Below are positions 40,917-54,718 of a stretch of DNA of 64,000 nt, piece by piece. Numbering within the stretch: the first letter of the stretch is position 1; every line of letters starts with the position of its first letter. The notes beneath the pieces are model-generated. The model worked only from the letters and a program-made list of their open reading frames with translations, was not told where the DNA came from and did no database searches. A program made the position numbers and the translations under genes. This DNA comes from Bacilli bacterium (GTDB lineage: Bacteria; Bacillota_I; Bacilli_A; RFN20; DUOF01): assembly GCA_017517765.1 (NCBI GenBank), contig JAFWYE010000006.1, forward strand, positions 434,001 to 498,000, read 5' to 3'.

Positions 40917-40955
40917 TTAAAAAACGCTAAGGTTTTTGTATATCCCTTAGCGTTT
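40917..40955 (-). terminator. Terminator after the hypothetical gene at 40947
   Basis: A 10-bp AACGCTAAGG/CCTTAGCGTT stem with a 12-nt loop, ending in TTTTTT on the minus strand and overlapping the stop codon; it insulates mgtE from the ddl operon. Confidence 0.82.
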
Positions 40956-41780
40956 ATTATTATCTAAAATTCTTGTTTCAATTTTATTTACAGCATCATT
41001 AAATATTTCTGCATCTGAAGCAAACATTATTCTTTCAACCTGCGCTTTTGTTTTTTTAAATCCCACCATATTTTTTCTTATTAGATTTAAACCTTCTTCT
41101 TTTTTGCCATTAATAATATAGCAAAGCCCTAAACACACTGCACAAGATGGAGATTTATCTGCACCTTGAGAAAACTTATATTCAGCCATATCAAAATAAT
41201 ACTTATTTTCGATAACTGGACGTTTATCTTTTAAAACTCTACTAGCATTATCTACAAGTGAAGGAAAATCCACAAATAGGCTTCCTAAACTAAAGAAAAT
41301 TTCTACATCTTCTTTTACATGAGGTAAACCTATATCTTCAGTTCTATATGGTTCACTTGACCATTTAGATTTAAAGTCCATCATTTCACTTATCGCAGGG
41401 ACATAACCACTGCTATATGCTTTTTCAAATATAGACATAGCAAGTTTTCTATATCTATTTTGATTCTCTATATTTTTAGAAAGTAAAGATAAATATCCAT
41501 ACGCCTTAGCAATCATACAATCTAAAAAACCTATTGCTTCCTGGGTTAAATATTTTTTTCCATATCTACTCTTAATTGTATTAGCAACATTAATGAGTTG
41601 TATCGGGGAATTATTTGAAAGGGCGAGAGTGGCAAAACTATATGTGAATGAGTTTTTAACTTCTTCAACACTAGCTTTATGATTCGCATTAACCTTATGC
41701 TCTTTTAAATATTTTTCAAATGATTCAGTAAAACCATCGATTTTAGTAATATTTTCTTCATACTTTATACCCTTTGCCAT
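40947..41780 (-). CDS. Helical hypothetical protein (TPR-like)
   Basis: 277 residues from ATG 41780, where GGGGTG lies 8 nt upstream; a longer frame to 41831 would overlap ddl and has no ribosome site. No signal or membrane helix. Mostly helical, with stretches such as AISEMMDFKSKW and CAVCLGLCYIINGKKEEGLNLIRKN that recall degenerate Sel1/TPR units, similar in style to the protein at 29416. It is the last gene of the operon containing the ddl-like, MurF-like and hydrolase genes (47 nt after ddl). Function unknown. Confidence 0.65.
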   Translation of the reverse strand: MAKGIKYEENITKIDGFTESFEKYLKEHKVNANHKASVEEVKNSFTYSFATLALSNNSPIQLINVANTIKSRYGKKYLTQEAIGFLDCMIAKAYGYLSLLSKNIENQNRYRKLAMSIFEKAYSSGYVPAISEMMDFKSKWSSEPYRTEDIGLPHVKEDVEIFFSLGSLFVDFPSLVDNASRVLKDKRPVIENKYYFDMAEYKFSQGADKSPSCAVCLGLCYIINGKKEEGLNLIRKNMVGFKKTKAQVERIMFASDAEIFNDAVNKIETRILDNNKR

Positions 41781-41827
41781 TTTTAACACCCCACTTACCT
41801 CTATTTTACTCAAACTCTTTTCACATT

Positions 41828-42892
41828 TCAATAATTATTTAGTCCTGGAAAAATCAAATTTTCACTCAATGTTGTTTTCTCTTTATTCAAAAAGAATAAA
41901 CTTCTTTTACTCTCTTTAATAACAATATCTAACAATTCCAAAAAATCATATTTTTCATCCCATAAATAATAAGCATATGATCCTGGTATTGCATTTATTT
42001 CATTAACATATAATTTGTCTTTATACAAAAAATCAATTCGGATAACTCCACTAGCTCCCAATTCTTTATAAATGATTTTTGATTTATTTTCTATTTCATT
42101 TTTTATATCTTCCTCAATCTCAAAATTACTCTTTTGGGTATAGTTCATCCCCTTTTTCTTATTTCCAGATAAATACTTATCTTCATAACTATAAATTTCA
42201 TCTTTTATAACTTCTTCGATTTTACTAGTTTCAATTACTCCATTATTATTTAAAACTGCTATATTAAACTCTCTAGAATTCTCCAAATACTTTTCTGCTA
42301 GTATTAAATTATCCAGCTTAAATATTTCTCTAGAATATCTTTCTAATTCTTTATAATTTTTAGCAATTTTAATCCCAACTGAAGATCCTAAATTATTTGG
42401 TTTTAAAATAACAGGAAAATCCACTTCTTTTATTATTTCTCCCCTTGATATAGTTAGATACTCCACATTGTCAATTCCTAACTCAGATAATAACATTTTG
42501 CTAAACTTCTTATTTTGTGAAGCTGCATAAAAAGATAAATTATCTCCAATTATGTCAAAACCTTTAAATCTAAAATATGCTAGGACGCTACCATCCTCTA
42601 CCCCTTTACCATGAACTATTGGCAATATTAAATCAAATTTAATTTTCTTTCTTCCTTTAATATAAAAGCCATCTTTATTAACAAATTCTACAATCTCTTT
42701 TTTGCTATATTTATGATTTTTAAATTCCTCAATATTATTTACCTTATTACTATAATAGAACTTATTAGATTTAGATATGTAAACAGGAAATACTTCATAT
42801 TTAGTTTTTAAAGCTTCTATAACTTGAAAAGCACTAATAATACTAATTTCATGCTCTACACTATTGCCACCAAAAACAACAACAACTCTCAT
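41828..42892 (-). CDS. D-alanine--D-alanine ligase-like ATP-grasp enzyme
   Basis: 354 residues. VVVFGGNSVEHEISIISA opens the N domain; the ATP-grasp part shows VILKPNNLGSSVGI, a Tyr-x-Tyr-Glu-x-Lys-Tyr specificity segment, IRIDF and the metal loop VNEINAIPGS. The typical substrate-loop DK of 'amDKxxxK' reads SQNKKFSK, and the normal NEINTxPG motif has Ala for Thr with an altered C-terminal end. It would join two D-amino or hydroxy acids, with ATP. It follows the MurF-like gene by 9 nt. It could be the organism's only Ddl or a paralogue dedicated to the MurF-like partner; I therefore give no symbol. Confidence 0.85.
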   Translation of the reverse strand: MRVVVVFGGNSVEHEISIISAFQVIEALKTKYEVFPVYISKSNKFYYSNKVNNIEEFKNHKYSKKEIVEFVNKDGFYIKGRKKIKFDLILPIVHGKGVEDGSVLAYFRFKGFDIIGDNLSFYAASQNKKFSKMLLSELGIDNVEYLTISRGEIIKEVDFPVILKPNNLGSSVGIKIAKNYKELERYSREIFKLDNLILAEKYLENSREFNIAVLNNNGVIETSKIEEVIKDEIYSYEDKYLSGNKKKGMNYTQKSNFEIEEDIKNEIENKSKIIYKELGASGVIRIDFLYKDKLYVNEINAIPGSYAYYLWDEKYDFLELLDIVIKESKRSLFFLNKEKTTLSENLIFPGLNNY

Positions 42893-42901
42893 TCTTTCAC
42901 C

Positions 42902-44359
42902 TCAATTTAAATATATGTCAGGCAAATCATTTTCTATTAGCACTATTTTTTCTTTTTCTAATCCCTTGGTATATTCAAATGCCTCAAAAAAAGAATTAAA
43001 TATTTTGTATTCTTTATATCCCATTAAATCTAATTCTTCTTTTATATTAGTAGTATTATTTGTAACTAAGCATACAAAATCACACCCTAATAAATAATGA
43101 GCTAATCTTTTATTCACCAATATATTATTTTTTCCTTGCTCTATTATTCCAGGGGTTATTACAATCTTATATTTATCTGATTTTTTAATTAACTCTATTG
43201 CATCTTTAAATCCTTTTTCATTGCTATTAAATGAATCATCTATAACATTAACCCCATCAATAATTTTCGGTTCTAATCTATGCTCTAAACAGGATACACT
43301 TTCAATATATTTAACAATAAATTCAATATCTAAGTTAAGTGAAAGAAGCACACACACCACCGCTAATGTGTTTTCTACTCCATGTATAGATAAAACAGGA
43401 ATACTTACTCTTTTTATTTTTATCCCTTTAATATACAAATCAAATTCACTATGGCTAGTATCTAAAATTATATTTTTCCCCATAACATCAGAATCACTAT
43501 TAATTCCATATCTTAATACTCTTTTATTTTTATAATCATAATTTTTTAACAAAATATCATCATTATTAATGATTGCGCAACCATCTTTATCCAAAGCTTC
43601 TATTAGTTTTATTTTTTCTTTTAAAATGTTTTCTTTTCTTTTAAATGTTAAAAGGTGTTGACTCCCAATATAGGTAATAATAGCAATGTTAGGTTTAACC
43701 ACTTTTAATATCTTGTCCATTCCTTTAACCCTATCTACTCCATACTCACAAACAAAATAATCATCATAATCTTTTACATGTTCATTAATGGATTTTACAA
43801 TCCCAACTTTATTATTAAATGACTTAGGTGTTTTAGTTACATTAAATTCATTTATTAAAACATCATAAATCATATTTTTAACACTAGTTTTTCCACCACT
43901 ACCCGTAATACCAATCACAAATTTATCCTTTATTTTATTTCTTGCACTTTTTAAATATCTTGTAAAAAGAATCTCTTCTAGTAAACAAGATATAAAGTGT
44001 AAGAAGCACAAATAAAAAAAACTAAAAATATAGATATACTTTATTAAATTTAAAACCATAATAATAACAGAAATTAATAAATTCAAACAAATAACTCTCT
44101 TTACTCTATTAGTATAACTTAGTTTACTTTTTTTAATAATCAGTGCCAAAAAGGGTAAAGCAAATATAATAAATAAAAAATCAAATTTAATCACAAAAAT
44201 AAATAATAAACAATATAAATATAGGCAATATCCTTTATTACTTTTTATATGATATAAATATCTACTTAGCTCATAATGATAATTTTGAAATATTGTGTAT
44301 TCTTTAACAACTAAAAAATGCATTATTAATAGTAATAAAAAATTAGAGATAATAGACAC
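42902..44359 (-). CDS. Membrane-anchored MurF-like Mur ligase
   Basis: 485 residues from GTG 44359, which has AAGGAG upstream; the longer frame to 44401 would translate that site. Residues 1-135 are about five hydrophobic helices in place of the N-terminal UDP-substrate domain of MurF. The Mur core follows: P-loop GITGSGGKTS (about 150), a CEYGVD acidic motif, YIGSQHLLTFKRKENILKEK with the conserved His and carbamoylatable Lys region, SIHGVENTLAVV, LEHRLE and DDSFNSN, all in MurF order. So an ATP-dependent amide ligase at the membrane is expected, with a membrane-bound or lipid-linked acceptor (inference). Its start overlaps the hydrolase gene by 17 nt. Confidence 0.82.
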   Translation of the reverse strand: MSIISNFLLLLIMHFLVVKEYTIFQNYHYELSRYLYHIKSNKGYCLYLYCLLFIFVIKFDFLFIIFALPFLALIIKKSKLSYTNRVKRVICLNLLISVIIMVLNLIKYIYIFSFFYLCFLHFISCLLEEILFTRYLKSARNKIKDKFVIGITGSGGKTSVKNMIYDVLINEFNVTKTPKSFNNKVGIVKSINEHVKDYDDYFVCEYGVDRVKGMDKILKVVKPNIAIITYIGSQHLLTFKRKENILKEKIKLIEALDKDGCAIINNDDILLKNYDYKNKRVLRYGINSDSDVMGKNIILDTSHSEFDLYIKGIKIKRVSIPVLSIHGVENTLAVVCVLLSLNLDIEFIVKYIESVSCLEHRLEPKIIDGVNVIDDSFNSNEKGFKDAIELIKKSDKYKIVITPGIIEQGKNNILVNKRLAHYLLGCDFVCLVTNNTTNIKEELDLMGYKEYKIFNSFFEAFEYTKGLEKEKIVLIENDLPDIYLN

Positions 44360-45053
44360 GTTTTTCTCTCTCCTTAAAGAAATCATTAATCTCAATTCCA
44401 ATAATTTCTCTATTACTTAAATATGCAAAATGATCTCCATTGATAACCCTCAATTTACTTCTCAACAATTTTTTGTTAATTTTTTTTGCATTAGCAAAAC
44501 TAACTTTTTCGTCTTCTTTAGAATATACTAGTAATACTGGTATCCTTAATCTTTTTATTATTTTGTTGTAATGAGTATTTACTACTTTAATAAAAAATCC
44601 TTTCATTTCACTAGAAGTATTTTTATAGTCTTCGCTTCCCATATTAGTATTAAGTTTCAATCTTTTTTTTATTTTATAAAGCAAAATACTAAAGTAACAC
44701 TTCAAACTTCTTTTTGGTTTTAATAAAGGAGAAGCAATAAATGCAATTGATTTAACACCAAATAGCAAATGATATTCTAAAGCCACTTTTCCCCCAAAAG
44801 AGTGCCCAATGATATAACTAACTTTTATATTTTTATTAATTAAGAAATCATGAATACTTCTAGCATATTCTGATATGTCTTTACTATGATTAAATTCACT
44901 ATTTCCAAATCCAGGCATATCTATAGCAACACATGTGTATTTATTTCTTAATACTTTTATTAAAGGATACATCATTTCTTTATTTTGACCCCAGCCATGT
45001 AAAAACAAAACAACAGGTCCATTTCCTTCAATAAAAAAATCTAGATTAGGCAT
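44343..45053 (-). CDS. Alpha/beta hydrolase
   Basis: 236 residues. Oxyanion loop VLFLHGWGQNKEMM, nucleophile elbow GHSFGG (Ser about 93), acid in VYSKEDEKVS, and His in NGDHFAYL make a complete Ser-Asp-His triad. The small cap region (about 125-165) is basic and hydrophobic. No signal peptide, so it acts in the cytoplasm, possibly at the membrane. Translational overlap with the MurF-like ligase and proximity to the Ddl-like gene suggest it edits or hydrolyses their product or an ester/peptide intermediate (inference). The start codon and GAGGTG site lie in the loop of a 10-bp hairpin. Confidence 0.87.
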   Translation of the reverse strand: MPNLDFFIEGNGPVVLFLHGWGQNKEMMYPLIKVLRNKYTCVAIDMPGFGNSEFNHSKDISEYARSIHDFLINKNIKVSYIIGHSFGGKVALEYHLLFGVKSIAFIASPLLKPKRSLKCYFSILLYKIKKRLKLNTNMGSEDYKNTSSEMKGFFIKVVNTHYNKIIKRLRIPVLLVYSKEDEKVSFANAKKINKKLLRSKLRVINGDHFAYLSNREIIGIEINDFFKEREKRVYYL

Positions 45054-45094: not shown

Positions 45095-45952
45095 TTACTT
45101 AAGAGTATCTATTTTCTTTTCTGCTAAACCTATAATTCTATCTTTTTCAGCATCTTCAATATACTTATCAAGTCCAACAGTTTTTCCTTTTAAAGCTTTT
45201 ACTTGCTTAAATAAATCTAATGCTTTGTTAACATCATACTTCTCATATGACTTATTTAAATATACTAGCCCTAATGCATATAAAGCTAAATAGTTTTGGT
45301 CATCCCACTTAGTTGCATAAATCAAATCTTTCTCAATTGTCTTTAATCTTGTTTCTGGAGACATATCCAATACATCTCCATCAATTATAAATCTATATGC
45401 TCTTAATGAAAGCACATATGCCTTTAATGCTCTTACATCTGTATATCTCTCTAATCTAGTAACATAATCATTACCTAGTAAAATATTAGTCTTTCTATTA
45501 TGTCCTTCTAAACTAAAAGCAATTGTAGTTTGTCCATATAGGGCTTTAATGTAATAAAGCATAGACATAACTCTAAAATATGGTTTTCTAGTACCCGCCA
45601 CTAATCTTTCTCTAGCAAACTCTACATATTCTTTTTTCTTCCCATTAAGTTCAGAATCATCAAAATTAAAATCTTCAGCAATTATTATTGCCATCTCTTC
45701 TCCTAGAATAACCATTTTTTCTCTATCTTCCTTACTAGGAGTTAATATTTCAGTTAACTTTTTATACTTTATATATTTTTCATTAAATGTTTTATATTCC
45801 TTCCTAGAAGGTTTTTGTATTTCATAATCTGTAAAATCTGTAATAATTACATCATCTTTTTTATCACCAAGTAATTCACTAAAATCTCCAAATGAATCTA
45901 GAGTTAAATCAAAATCATCCACTAACATTTCTTCTTCATTAATTTTTGTCAT
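45095..45952 (-). CDS. Acidic hypothetical protein with helical C terminus
   Basis: 285 residues from ATG 45952, with GGGG 9 nt upstream; a TTG three codons earlier is too near that site. No signal peptide or membrane helix. The first ~50 residues are very acidic (DDFDLTLDSFGDFSELLGDKKDD), then helices dominate; the last ~80 residues (NYLALYALGLVYLNKSYEKYDVNKALDLFKQVKAL) resemble a single TPR-like unit. Cytoplasmic and probably involved in protein contacts; family unknown. It is separated from the hydrolase by about 40 nt and is likely to be the first gene of that operon. Confidence 0.65.
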   Translation of the reverse strand: MTKINEEEMLVDDFDLTLDSFGDFSELLGDKKDDVIITDFTDYEIQKPSRKEYKTFNEKYIKYKKLTEILTPSKEDREKMVILGEEMAIIIAEDFNFDDSELNGKKKEYVEFARERLVAGTRKPYFRVMSMLYYIKALYGQTTIAFSLEGHNRKTNILLGNDYVTRLERYTDVRALKAYVLSLRAYRFIIDGDVLDMSPETRLKTIEKDLIYATKWDDQNYLALYALGLVYLNKSYEKYDVNKALDLFKQVKALKGKTVGLDKYIEDAEKDRIIGLAEKKIDTLK

Positions 45953-46071
45953 ATTAATCAACCCCTAATGTTAATTTTATTTTAATAAAACATATTTAAT
46001 AAAGCAATTTATTACCATTTTTATTAATCTAAGATTTAAAAATTGTTATAATTTCAATATGGAGTGATTAT

Positions 46072-51040: not shown

Positions 51041-51063
51041 AAAAGAGAAGTCTAGCTTCTCTT
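51041..51063 (-). terminator. Terminator of the repeat lipoprotein
   Basis: AAGAGAAG/CTTCTCTT stem with a 5-nt loop and a TTTTT-rich tail on the minus strand, overlapping the stop codon. Confidence 0.75.
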
Positions 51064-54000
51064 ATTCTTCCTCTACTATTCCAGTTCCACCAATATAATT
51101 TCCAGTAACAACTTGGCTGCCTGTTTTTGTTTCATATTGGCCAGTAGTTTGAGTAGATATCATAATGTTTTCAACTTCGCCTGAAGTATAAACAAACTTA
51201 GCACTCTTTCCTTCATCATATTCAACGTATACATTCGTAATAGTTCCACCATCTAATACAAATACTCCACCATCTAAAGTTTGATATGAATTTGCATTTA
51301 CAAATACATTACCTACTATTGCTCCATCTCCTACTGTAGCAACTGTTCCTGACGCCTCAGATCCTATCCATAAATCTGTTGCGTATTGTAAGTAATCAGT
51401 TTTTGGGGCAATTGTATTGTTAGTAATGCTTCCACCATGCATAACAAATGTTGATTCTTCTGTAACATAAACACCTGCAACATATGATGCGCTATATCCT
51501 CCAGTAACATGAGTATCTCTTAGTTCAAGTTGTCCCCCTGTTATTTTAATAACTCTAGCTTTAGAATTTCCATGTAATGTTAAATAATTGAACACTATTT
51601 CCTTGCCAATAGCATTAATTTCAAACATAACGGTTCCTTCAAAATCATCACTGGCCTTTAAAACCTCTTCATTTCCTGTTATAAGCAGTGACTTATTAAT
51701 TGTTATAGTTCTTTCAATGCTACTGCTTGCTAAAATATGTATTGTATCACCATCATTTGCCTCTTCAACAGCGTCTTCTAAATTGTCGTAATATTGGTCT
51801 TCTATTTTAACAAGTTTTCCACCATAGTAAGTTCCAAATGCACATCCATTAGAAATACCATATACACCTGTTGTCTTAGTCGATATTCTCAAATTATCTA
51901 CCATTCCACCGGCATAATTAAACGTTGCAAAAGCCCCACTTTCATCATCATATTCAACATATACATTTTCAATTCTACCATTTTGAAGAGTAAATACTCC
52001 CCCATCTTGAGTTTTATATGAATTAGCATTAATGAAAGCGCTTCCTACATGCACATTACCGCTAAGATTTGCAACTGTTCCCGAAGCTTCAGATCCTATC
52101 CATAAGTCTGTTGCATATTGTAAATAATCGCTACGCTCTTTTATTGTATTTCCATTGATTATTCCTGAATCCATTTCAAAAGTTGCTTCTTCAGTTATAT
52201 ATACACCTGCAACATATGCTGAACTATATCCACCTGTTATAGTACAACCGACCAATTTCAAGTGCCCTGCAACAGCTTTTATAACTCTACTTTTAGATTG
52301 AGCATCTATTATTGTTTCATTGAACACAACATTTTCTGCCCCATTATCTATAAGAACCATTACTGCTGCACCATAGTTTGAACTTGGTATTATCGCATGA
52401 GAATTTCCTTCAAAAGTCAAATTTTTGTTGACCATTAATGTGTCTGAAATCTCCTCATCTCTTATAAGCGATATTGTATCTCCTGAAGTTGCAGCCAAAA
52501 CCGCATCATTAAGAGTTTTATACCAATTTTCTCCAGCTTGTACTGTATGTCCTCCTTTATAACTTCCTTTGCTAGGGTTATAAATAGATTCATAAGCGCC
52601 TGTAGTAGATGTAGAAATCATCAAATTATTTAATTCTCCATTTAAATAATTCAATACTGCATATTTGTCACATGTGTCATCATATTCAACATATACATTA
52701 TTTACGCTTCCTCCATCTAAGGCAAATACCCCTCCACCTTCAACTTTATAAGAGTTTGCGTTGATGAATATGTTTCCTACATAGGCTTCTTCACCAAGCG
52801 AAGCAATTGTTCCAGAAGCCTCAGATCCTATCCACAAATCTGTTGCGTATTGTAAGTAATCAGTTCTTGAGGCAATTGTATTGTTAGAAATACTTCCTCC
52901 TATCATTTCAAAAGTTGCTTCTTCTGTTATATATACTCCTGCAATATATGAAGAACTGTATCCACCCGTTATAACTGTATTCTTTAAACTCAAATGGCCT
53001 GCAACAGCTTTTATAACTCTACTCTTAGAATTTGCATCAATTACAATATCACTAAATTCAACTGTTCTGCCTTGAGCATTAACAATAAACATAGCAGCCC
53101 CTTCAAAAGTCTCACTTGCTTCAATTGTTGCTCCCTTACTAGCTAAAGTAATATTTCTATTAATAGTAATTGTTTCATTAATTAAAACATTTCCAAATAC
53201 TTCTACAATATCGCCATCTTTTGCTGAACTAATTGCATCAGAAAGTTCTTCATAATAAACTCCATTCACTGAGGCTTGAATAAATCTAGCATATAAAGTT
53301 AAATCTCTAGGATCATTATCATAAACAAATAAATTATTATATTCTGCATCAGTATACCAACCAATAAATTTATATCCTTCTTTTTCAGGTTCATTTAATG
53401 CTAATTCCGTATCAATATCATAAGTTTCTGGATTGTCCTTATGATTTACTCCTCCATTCATAACATATTCTATATCATATGTTCCTTTAGCGTATGTAAA
53501 TTCAACTAGCACAGATTCTCCAGGCATAGTAAAGCTTCTATCATTAGCGTTAATTGGTTGTCCATTAATTGTTATGCTTGTGATCTCATATCCAGGATCT
53601 TCATCAACAGTGAAATATACTGTTTCTCCATATGATGCCGTTCCATCGATTTCAACATTTCCATGGGCACTTCTATATTCAATATCATACATTCCTACAG
53701 ACCATACCGCTATATATTTACGATTACCAGTTGATCCTTTACCTACAGTAAATGAGAAAGATTGACTTCCTGTTGATTCTTCTTTCCATCCCACGAACAC
53801 ATGTCCTTCTTTAGTAGGTTCCAATATATCAAATGATTCTGTTTCAACTGTATATGTTGATTTATTGTCAACATTATTTACTCCACCATCTAATTCATAT
53901 GTGATTGTATAATTAACTAGCTTGTACTCAACCTCAATTTCAACGTCTTCATTTGGCATAACAAAAGAATTTTTTGTTTCATCGAATGATTCACCATTGA

Positions 54001-54676
54001 TTATTATTTCATCAACTTCATATCCAGGAGAAGGAATAATATTAAATGATATATTATCTCCAAGGTTTGCTCCTTCTACAACTTCAACTTGTCCATACTC
54101 AGAAATAGTTGTTATGTTGTAAACTGTTAATACCCATTGTGCTGTATATCTTTTATTTCCTGTTGTTCCTTTTAGAATCCTTCTAAATTGAACAATAGAT
54201 CCATTATCTTCATCTTTCCAACCAGCAAAAGTATGACCATATTTTGTTGGATTATTAATTGTTATATTGTTGCTATCAATATTATATGTTGTTGGATTTG
54301 ACTTATTAAGTTCTCCACCATCCAAATTGTAGGTAATTGTATAGTCAATTGGTACAAACTTTGCATAAAGTTCAAGATGCCCTTTATCACCTTTTTCAAT
54401 TGTAGTAACTTGGTTTTCAAAAGTACTTTCCTCATACCAACCAGCAAATGTATAGCCTGTCTTTGTAGCGTCTTTTAAAGAAAAAGTGTTGTCGCTTGCT
54501 TTGTATGAACTTGGATTATCATTGTTATTAATACCACCATCTAAAAAATACTTAATATTGTATACTGACTCAACTCCTTGCTCTTGGTTAGGATCATCAC
54601 AACCCGTCAAAACATATGCACCAGTAGCGATAGTAAGCGTAAGTAGTCCCGTAACTAACTTTTTATTTTTTTTCAT
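51062..54676 (-). CDS. Large repeat lipoprotein with InlB-type B-repeats and pectin-lyase-like repeats
   Basis: 1204 residues from ATG 54676, with GAAAGGATG upstream; the longer frame to 54712 is rejected. A type II signal peptide ends in LTGC, lipidated Cys26. Residues ~35-470 hold four Listeria-Bacteroides repeats (each with FxGWxxE and an ADGG/LDGG-type start) interleaved with two divergent InlB B-repeats (Flg_new_2-like, GYEVDEIIINGES). Residues ~474-1200 are three ~245-residue right-handed beta-helix-like repeats, each containing RVIKA, GVYITEEATF, DYLQYATDLWIGSEASGT and NANSY. It would be a membrane-anchored adhesin or glycan-binding protein outside the cell. No catalytic motif is seen. 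Confidence 0.85.
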   Translation of the reverse strand: MKKNKKLVTGLLTLTIATGAYVLTGCDDPNQEQGVESVYNIKYFLDGGINNNDNPSSYKASDNTFSLKDATKTGYTFAGWYEESTFENQVTTIEKGDKGHLELYAKFVPIDYTITYNLDGGELNKSNPTTYNIDSNNITINNPTKYGHTFAGWKDEDNGSIVQFRRILKGTTGNKRYTAQWVLTVYNITTISEYGQVEVVEGANLGDNISFNIIPSPGYEVDEIIINGESFDETKNSFVMPNEDVEIEVEYKLVNYTITYELDGGVNNVDNKSTYTVETESFDILEPTKEGHVFVGWKEESTGSQSFSFTVGKGSTGNRKYIAVWSVGMYDIEYRSAHGNVEIDGTASYGETVYFTVDEDPGYEITSITINGQPINANDRSFTMPGESVLVEFTYAKGTYDIEYVMNGGVNHKDNPETYDIDTELALNEPEKEGYKFIGWYTDAEYNNLFVYDNDPRDLTLYARFIQASVNGVYYEELSDAISSAKDGDIVEVFGNVLINETITINRNITLASKGATIEASETFEGAAMFIVNAQGRTVEFSDIVIDANSKSRVIKAVAGHLSLKNTVITGGYSSSYIAGVYITEEATFEMIGGSISNNTIASRTDYLQYATDLWIGSEASGTIASLGEEAYVGNIFINANSYKVEGGGVFALDGGSVNNVYVEYDDTCDKYAVLNYLNGELNNLMISTSTTGAYESIYNPSKGSYKGGHTVQAGENWYKTLNDAVLAATSGDTISLIRDEEISDTLMVNKNLTFEGNSHAIIPSSNYGAAVMVLIDNGAENVVFNETIIDAQSKSRVIKAVAGHLKLVGCTITGGYSSAYVAGVYITEEATFEMDSGIINGNTIKERSDYLQYATDLWIGSEASGTVANLSGNVHVGSAFINANSYKTQDGGVFTLQNGRIENVYVEYDDESGAFATFNYAGGMVDNLRISTKTTGVYGISNGCAFGTYYGGKLVKIEDQYYDNLEDAVEEANDGDTIHILASSSIERTITINKSLLITGNEEVLKASDDFEGTVMFEINAIGKEIVFNYLTLHGNSKARVIKITGGQLELRDTHVTGGYSASYVAGVYVTEESTFVMHGGSITNNTIAPKTDYLQYATDLWIGSEASGTVATVGDGAIVGNVFVNANSYQTLDGGVFVLDGGTITNVYVEYDEGKSAKFVYTSGEVENIMISTQTTGQYETKTGSQVVTGNYIGGTGIVEEE
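51090..53270 (-). repeat. Three ~735-bp tandem repeats in the lipoprotein gene
   Basis: The segment for DYLQYATDLWIGSEASGT occurs at about 51355, 52090 and 52820, spacing about 730-735 bases, with GVYITEEATF and NANSY copies in phase. The repeats are similar enough for recombination to change copy number. Confidence 0.8.
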
Positions 54677-54718
54677 AAAATCATCCTTTCTATAATCAAT
54701 ACAATATCTCACGCATTA

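Follow-up and report, generated by a model that had tools for sequence, protein, structure and literature searches.

A MurF-type ligase with a membrane domain, encoded with a short-loop Ddl and an EstV-like hydrolase: a putative variant of the step that adds D-Ala-D-Ala in peptidoglycan synthesis

Introduction

MurF and Ddl catalyze textbook steps of peptidoglycan synthesis and are drug targets. In a stretch of 64,000 nucleotides from a Bacilli bacterium (hereafter the window), an operon encodes relatives of both enzymes together with an alpha/beta hydrolase, and the MurF-like protein begins with a membrane domain. Is this operon an addition to the housekeeping machinery, or is it that machinery in another form, and what would a MurF do in the membrane? 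The initial annotation proposed an additional cassette that builds and edits a dipeptide-like group on a membrane-bound acceptor, for example a lipid-linked wall or teichoic precursor, and perhaps gives antibiotic tolerance. We consider it likely instead that the operon provides an alternative D-Ala-D-Ala-adding step of peptidoglycan synthesis, that it is the genome's only such equipment, and that it acts at the membrane with a coupled hydrolase. The sequence-based parts of this reading are the unit itself, its sole-copy status, the loss of a domain, the single clade, the strict co-inheritance and the special Ddl.

Organization of the operon

The three genes lie on the minus strand in the order hydrolase, MurF-like ligase, Ddl, and form one operon. 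They encode an EstV-like hydrolase of 236 residues (44343..45053), a MurF-type ligase of 485 residues (42902..44359) and a D-Ala-D-Ala ligase of 354 residues (41828..42892). The hydrolase and MurF genes overlap by 17 nt (44343..44359, minus strand) when the MurF gene is read from its GTG start, and the 9-nt gap between the MurF and Ddl genes (42893..42901, minus strand) contains the ribosome-binding site of ddl; reading frames and sequence thus agree with the layout first described. The GTG at 44359 is preceded by AAGGAG, while the longest open reading frame begins at a TTG at 44401 and would yield 499 residues. Residues of the MurF-type protein (Tyr30, Arg86 and others) are numbered here from the codon at 44362, which is one more than in the protein starting at GTG. 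The overlap between the hydrolase and MurF genes recurs in 15 of 17 relatives of the order. The open reading frames flanking the operon on the same strand (40947-41831 and 45095-45961) have no Pfam or NCBIfam match.

The operon holds the only MurF and Ddl of its genome

The source genome (1.55 Mb, with estimated completeness of about 97% and contamination of 6.9%) holds one Ddl, that of the operon, and four Mur ligase middle domains, which belong to MurE, MurD, MurC and the operon ligase. MurE and MurD exceed their model cut-offs and MurC lies just under its own (325 versus 335.1 bits); the MraY gene sits between MurE and MurD. No second MurF or Ddl was found in this genome, 97% complete by estimate. 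Because the genome has no other copy of either, the operon pair is, judged by gene content, the housekeeping MurF and Ddl in variant form. This sole-copy status is what the initial annotation had itself named as speaking against a cassette additional to the housekeeping pair. As a counterpoint, both proteins fall under the curated NCBIfam cut-offs: the MurF-type ligase scores 208 bits with TIGR01143 (MurF; cut-off 288.6), in a match that begins at profile position 68, and the Ddl scores 208.8 bits with TIGR01205 (cut-off 245.65).

A MurF with a membrane domain in place of its nucleotide-binding domain

In the MurF-type ligase, Pfam recognizes Mur_ligase_M (E 3e-37) and, weakly, Mur_ligase_C; the N-terminal Mur_ligase domain is absent. 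The ATP-binding and C-terminal domains are encoded at 42905..43921 (minus strand), with the MurF structure 4qf5 as the best Foldseek match (E 4e-27). They are preceded by about 145 residues of hydrophobic helices (43924..44359, minus strand), after which the P-loop follows. An AlphaFold2 model (pLDDT 90) places the helices at residues 2-27, 45-76, 85-103 and 107-144, and every relative compared has 3-6 hydrophobic segments before the P-loop, which bears out the earlier description of a membrane-embedded MurF homologue. The model aligns with MurF over about 350 of 486 residues, consistent with the absence of the first domain.

In solved MurFs, the first domain binds the uridine nucleotide, and two of the structures matched by Foldseek, 4cvk and 4cvm, are MurF complexes with UDP-MurNAc-tripeptide. 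The Pfam model of this UDP-binding domain, PF01225, matched none of 47 membrane MurFs, as opposed to 8 of 10 soluble MurF controls. All 47 nevertheless match TIGR01143, and the membrane MurF has the P-loop middle and C-terminal domains of a Mur ligase, with MurF as its best match. In a maximum-likelihood tree, 44 membrane MurFs form one clade apart from soluble MurF with a support of 100/100; its members from Bacteroidales and Chloroflexota adjoin those from Clostridia, as horizontal transfer would give. A plasmid search returned partial MurF matches only, none covering 80% of the query.

Within the membrane domain, Tyr30 is present in all 47 sequences and Arg86 in 46, followed by Arg89 (35) and Arg34 (33). 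That a membrane domain with one invariant tyrosine and one near-invariant arginine stands where the UDP-binding domain would be suggests that the membrane is where the acceptor is presented. Conserved basic residues are few, and binding of a lipid pyrophosphate is not evident from the sequence. It is possible, though we would lean against it, that the membrane MurF uses ordinary UDP-MurNAc-tripeptide, with the membrane domain as an anchor beside MraY and the uridine bound in some other way. MurC, MurD, MurE and MraY of this genome look canonical and the catalytic domains of the ligase are MurF-like in fold, as such a substrate would have it; yet the uridine-binding domain is missing from 47 of 47 proteins, and no other gene encoding one accompanies the module. 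We prefer a lipid-linked tripeptide as the putative acceptor, with a confidence that comes close to even, and regard a nucleotide tripeptide channelled to MraY as its main rival.

Conservation and distribution of the three genes

Membrane-MurF loci of the order carry the same trio in the same gene order in 17 of 18 cases, and the eighteenth ends at a contig edge. Of 296 genomes of the class, 103 have the membrane MurF, the hydrolase or both: each gene occurs in 102 and the pair in 101, and both genomes with a single one of them are incomplete draft assemblies. Among named species, a scan recovered 80 loci, from Bacilli, Clostridia, Mycoplasmatota, Bacteroidales and one Anaerolineales assembly, with the hydrolase directly upstream in 73 and Ddl downstream in 74. 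Soluble MurF controls of the class (20 loci) have an adjacent Ddl in 13 cases and an adjacent hydrolase in none. By these comparisons the trio is a distinct, conserved and co-inherited module, in keeping with the dedicated co-occurrence that the initial annotation had proposed to look for in related genomes. Flanking genes were discarded as a functional clue, as none outside the trio is conserved across loci.

Departures from this arrangement are few. In two Lachnospiraceae the hydrolase gene is located after ddl, and a Bacteroidales assembly (L074) gave no hydrolase match. The membrane MurF of three Bacilli genomes stands apart, beside other Mur ligases, while hydrolase and Ddl remain paired elsewhere (L137-L139). 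The membrane MurF directly precedes a Mur ligase gene in L086:562-4874, L079:6992-9960 and L048; the ligase that follows is of the MurE type in L079 and L086, and L086 has two in tandem.

The membrane MurF was found in 29 of 195 genomes sampled from the phylum (about 15%; 32 matches, of which three are canonical by coverage) and in 39 of 245 sampled from Clostridia (about 16%). In the class of an Alistipes carrier it occurs in 1 of 149, namely the centre genome itself, and the module is sporadic in Bacteroidales and Chloroflexota.

Not every carrier relies on the module alone. Nine genomes of the class have it alongside a separate, verified soluble MurF, several with their own Ddl (L117-L125). 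Conversely, for 79 of the 102 carriers of the class the matches listed at E<=1e-30 include no second MurF-like ligase, in a listing where soluble MurFs usually score 1e-47 to 1e-65, so that up to about one-fifth of module genomes may retain one. Three isolates, Marinococcus luteus, Pseudalkalibacillus decolorationis and Anaeromicropila populeti, have no strong Ddl besides that of the module, and there is no obvious separate soluble MurF among their listed Mur ligases. Families of the order without MurC, MurD and MurE also lack the module, and every walled member of the order that was fetched with a membrane MurF has the trio (one locus being cut by a contig end). That module and MurC/D/E are missing together in lineages without wall genes points to peptidoglycan rather than teichoic acid. 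Of the acceptor first proposed, its membrane-bound nature stands as a possibility and its teichoic variant is disfavoured.

These data also bear on the proposal that the genes are an extra cassette, by which a lipid-linked or teichoic acceptor is decorated. A membrane MurF, strict three-gene co-inheritance and the genomes that combine the module with a soluble murF, which often has a ddl of its own, would all suit it, and in genomes that keep a second MurF-like ligase the module could be doing something extra. Given the lack of any other murF or ddl seen here and in most carriers, and the joint absence of the module and MurC/D/E, we judge this proposal very improbable; for this genome, the sole-copy result contradicts it.

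As an observation on the order itself, most sampled members of families f2, f4 and f5 and of genus g6 have no Mur ligase middle domain or a single one, which is possibly FolC; wall synthesis seems, by gene content, to have been lost several times inside this one order and kept in its other members.

The hydrolase

The hydrolase matches Abhydrolase_1 (E 7e-20) and has an esterase fold, the solved relatives being generic esterases only. Its catalytic triad, Ser85, Asp181 and His208, and the cap residues Ser140 and Asp142 are invariant in 46 hydrolase sequences, all of which match the EstV family lipase model NF058580. The window protein scores 138.6 bits, which is under the equivalog cut-off of 300, in a near full-length match (13-217). 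From these matches, the hydrolase appears to belong near the EstV family. H. pylori EstV cleaves short-chain esters in vitro (PMC3741291).

Because enzymes of the EstV type cleave such simple esters (PMC3741291), the hydrolase could be a bystander lipase, an operon-mate with no functional coupling to the ligases. This is hard to reconcile with its presence together with the membrane MurF in 101 of 103 genomes, its absence beside every soluble murF-ddl pair, its retention in the three genomes in which the operon is split, the invariance of its triad and cap residues and the possible essentiality of the C. jejuni homologue (PMC5530802); we think it very unlikely. The hydrolase is apparently an obligatory third partner of the MurF-Ddl step. 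Since it is strictly tied to the membrane MurF and never accompanies soluble murF-ddl, its substrate in the cell may be an ester that arises, or is encountered, when ligation takes place at the membrane.

About ten genomes in family f17 encode a further hydrolase of this protein family, away from murF and ddl (L126-L134). As stand-alone genes, these paralogues proved uninformative about function and were set aside.

A Ddl with a shortened substrate loop

The Ddl meets the Pfam cut-offs for both domains (Dala_Dala_lig_N, E 3e-23; Dala_Dala_lig_C, E 4e-33) and keeps the conserved catalytic residues as well as the omega-loop K-Y that is typical of D-Ala-D-Ala ligases. The residues SQNKKFSK and NEINAIPG, first singled out as changes in the substrate loops, vary among close relatives, and S. 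aureus Ddl carries NETNAMPG; both motifs were therefore dropped as specificity markers. The real departure, which had been missed, is a deletion of four residues directly after NEINAIPG that removes the canonical NExNxxPG-[FM]TxxS loop; the resulting NEINAIPG-SYAYYLW motif is encoded at 41960..42004 (minus strand).

This deletion is typical of the module. Of 91 Ddls encoded beside a membrane MurF, 86 have a shortened S-type loop, three have a shortened C-type loop and two do not match the motif; the short loop is thus present in at least 89 of 91, versus none of 13 Ddls beside a soluble MurF, all of which carry [FM]TxxS after NExNxxPG. These loop counts were made separately from alignment A5, in which the L078 row is a hydrolase. 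In one locus (L040:1664-2852), the Ddl frame 3' of the membrane MurF is split into two open reading frames. The same short loop is found in the H. pylori Ddl (NEINPIPGSLANYLF), whose structure, 2PVP, was deposited as that of a D-Ala-D-Ala ligase.

An altered C-terminal substrate loop and weak matches to VanG-type and VanC-type models might suggest that the module makes a depsipeptide or a D-Ala-D-Ser end and confers glycopeptide tolerance like Van ligases, a reading we regard as highly improbable since the Ddl keeps the omega-loop K-Y, scores only 80-139 bits with Van ligase models whose cut-offs of 495-775 are nowhere reached, shares its loop with the H. pylori enzyme and has no conserved neighbours besides the trio. 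For antibiotic tolerance, as first suggested, no support was found.

Proposed function

In the mechanism that we propose, we infer the dipeptide and its acceptor, and likewise that the esterase is active and what it contributes. Since the operon's Ddl and MurF are both sole copies, the pathway would have them make and attach the dipeptide: the short-loop Ddl would produce D-Ala-D-Ala, and the membrane MurF would join it, on the cytoplasmic side of the membrane, to the tripeptide stem. The membrane domain would most likely hold the acceptor, either as a tripeptide already linked to lipid (lipid I or II), in which case MurF would act after MraY, or as a nucleotide precursor passed on to MraY. 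The hydrolase is predicted to be an active serine esterase with an obligatory link to the membrane MurF, and it probably clears or processes an ester made at this step.

We put forward tentatively, as something short of an even call, the more specific proposal that D-Ala-D-Ala is added once the precursor is on the lipid carrier: MraY would use UDP-MurNAc-tripeptide for the transfer, the membrane MurF would extend lipid I or II to the pentapeptide, and the dedicated esterase would be its obligatory partner. Whether D-Ala-D-Ala is added before or after the lipid carrier is a question that this module raises and that is directly testable. Should the lipid-carrier reading be true, the textbook order in which the precursor is assembled would be reversed in about one-sixth of Clostridia and of the window's phylum.

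Relation to known systems

The module belongs to an ordinary pathway but gives its MurF-Ddl step an unusual form. With canonical MurF-Ddl pairs (TIGR01143, TIGR01205) it shares the ATP-binding and C-terminal domains of MurF, an ATP-grasp Ddl and the adjacency of the genes; in the canonical pairs, however, the soluble MurF carries PF01225 and is free of membrane helices, the Ddl loop is FTxxS, and the hydrolase is absent. In a literature search, outside of which most subscription journals lay, we found no paper on a membrane MurF lacking the nucleotide domain. The earlier statement that no system of this exact form has been described is nearly right, with the reservation that a C. jejuni paper notes a neighbouring murF, hydrolase and ddl, naming no system: Cj0795c (MurF), Cj0796c (alpha/beta hydrolase) and Cj0798c (Ddl), of which Cj0796c is suspected to be essential and to take part in peptidoglycan synthesis (PMC5530802). 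These are the same three gene kinds as in the operon described here, and the likeness lies in gene kinds and neighbourhood.

The likeness to H. pylori comprises the short loop of its Ddl (2PVP) and the EstV model matched by all 46 hydrolases compared. H. pylori murF (HP0740) has 1485 bp, more than the length of a soluble MurF, and we take EstV to be HP0739, adjoining murF and ddl. The trio of Campylobacterota has been noticed in the literature without an explanation.

MurT/GatD, which acts on a lipid-linked precursor (lipid II), likewise combines a Mur ligase with a hydrolase-type partner, and the fold match has a TMq of 0.57. The window module differs in its membrane domain, its MurF-type sequence and the lack of GatD; at 1e-10, the MurT model matches 1 of 47 membrane MurFs, and neither the MurF nor the hydrolase appears from sequence to be a member of the MurT/GatD family. 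The pseudomurein ligases pMurC and pMurE are related to Mur ligases, and an ATP-grasp gene is part of their gene clusters (PMC11915815); they are archaeal, come with another gene set, and are matched by the window MurF less well than is MurF itself.

If the proposed function is true, the final precursor step is altered in many gut bacteria, in that MurF has no nucleotide domain, resides in the membrane and needs an esterase. An explanation would then be on offer for the unexplained, possibly essential Campylobacter hydrolase, and inhibitors designed against soluble MurF may not fit membrane MurFs.

Elsewhere in the window, positions 51062-54712 encode a protein of 1216 residues, probably located at the surface, with a lipoprotein-like start and long similar repeats (which contain LQYATDLWIGSEASGT) that follow shorter repeats of the GYTFAGWY type.
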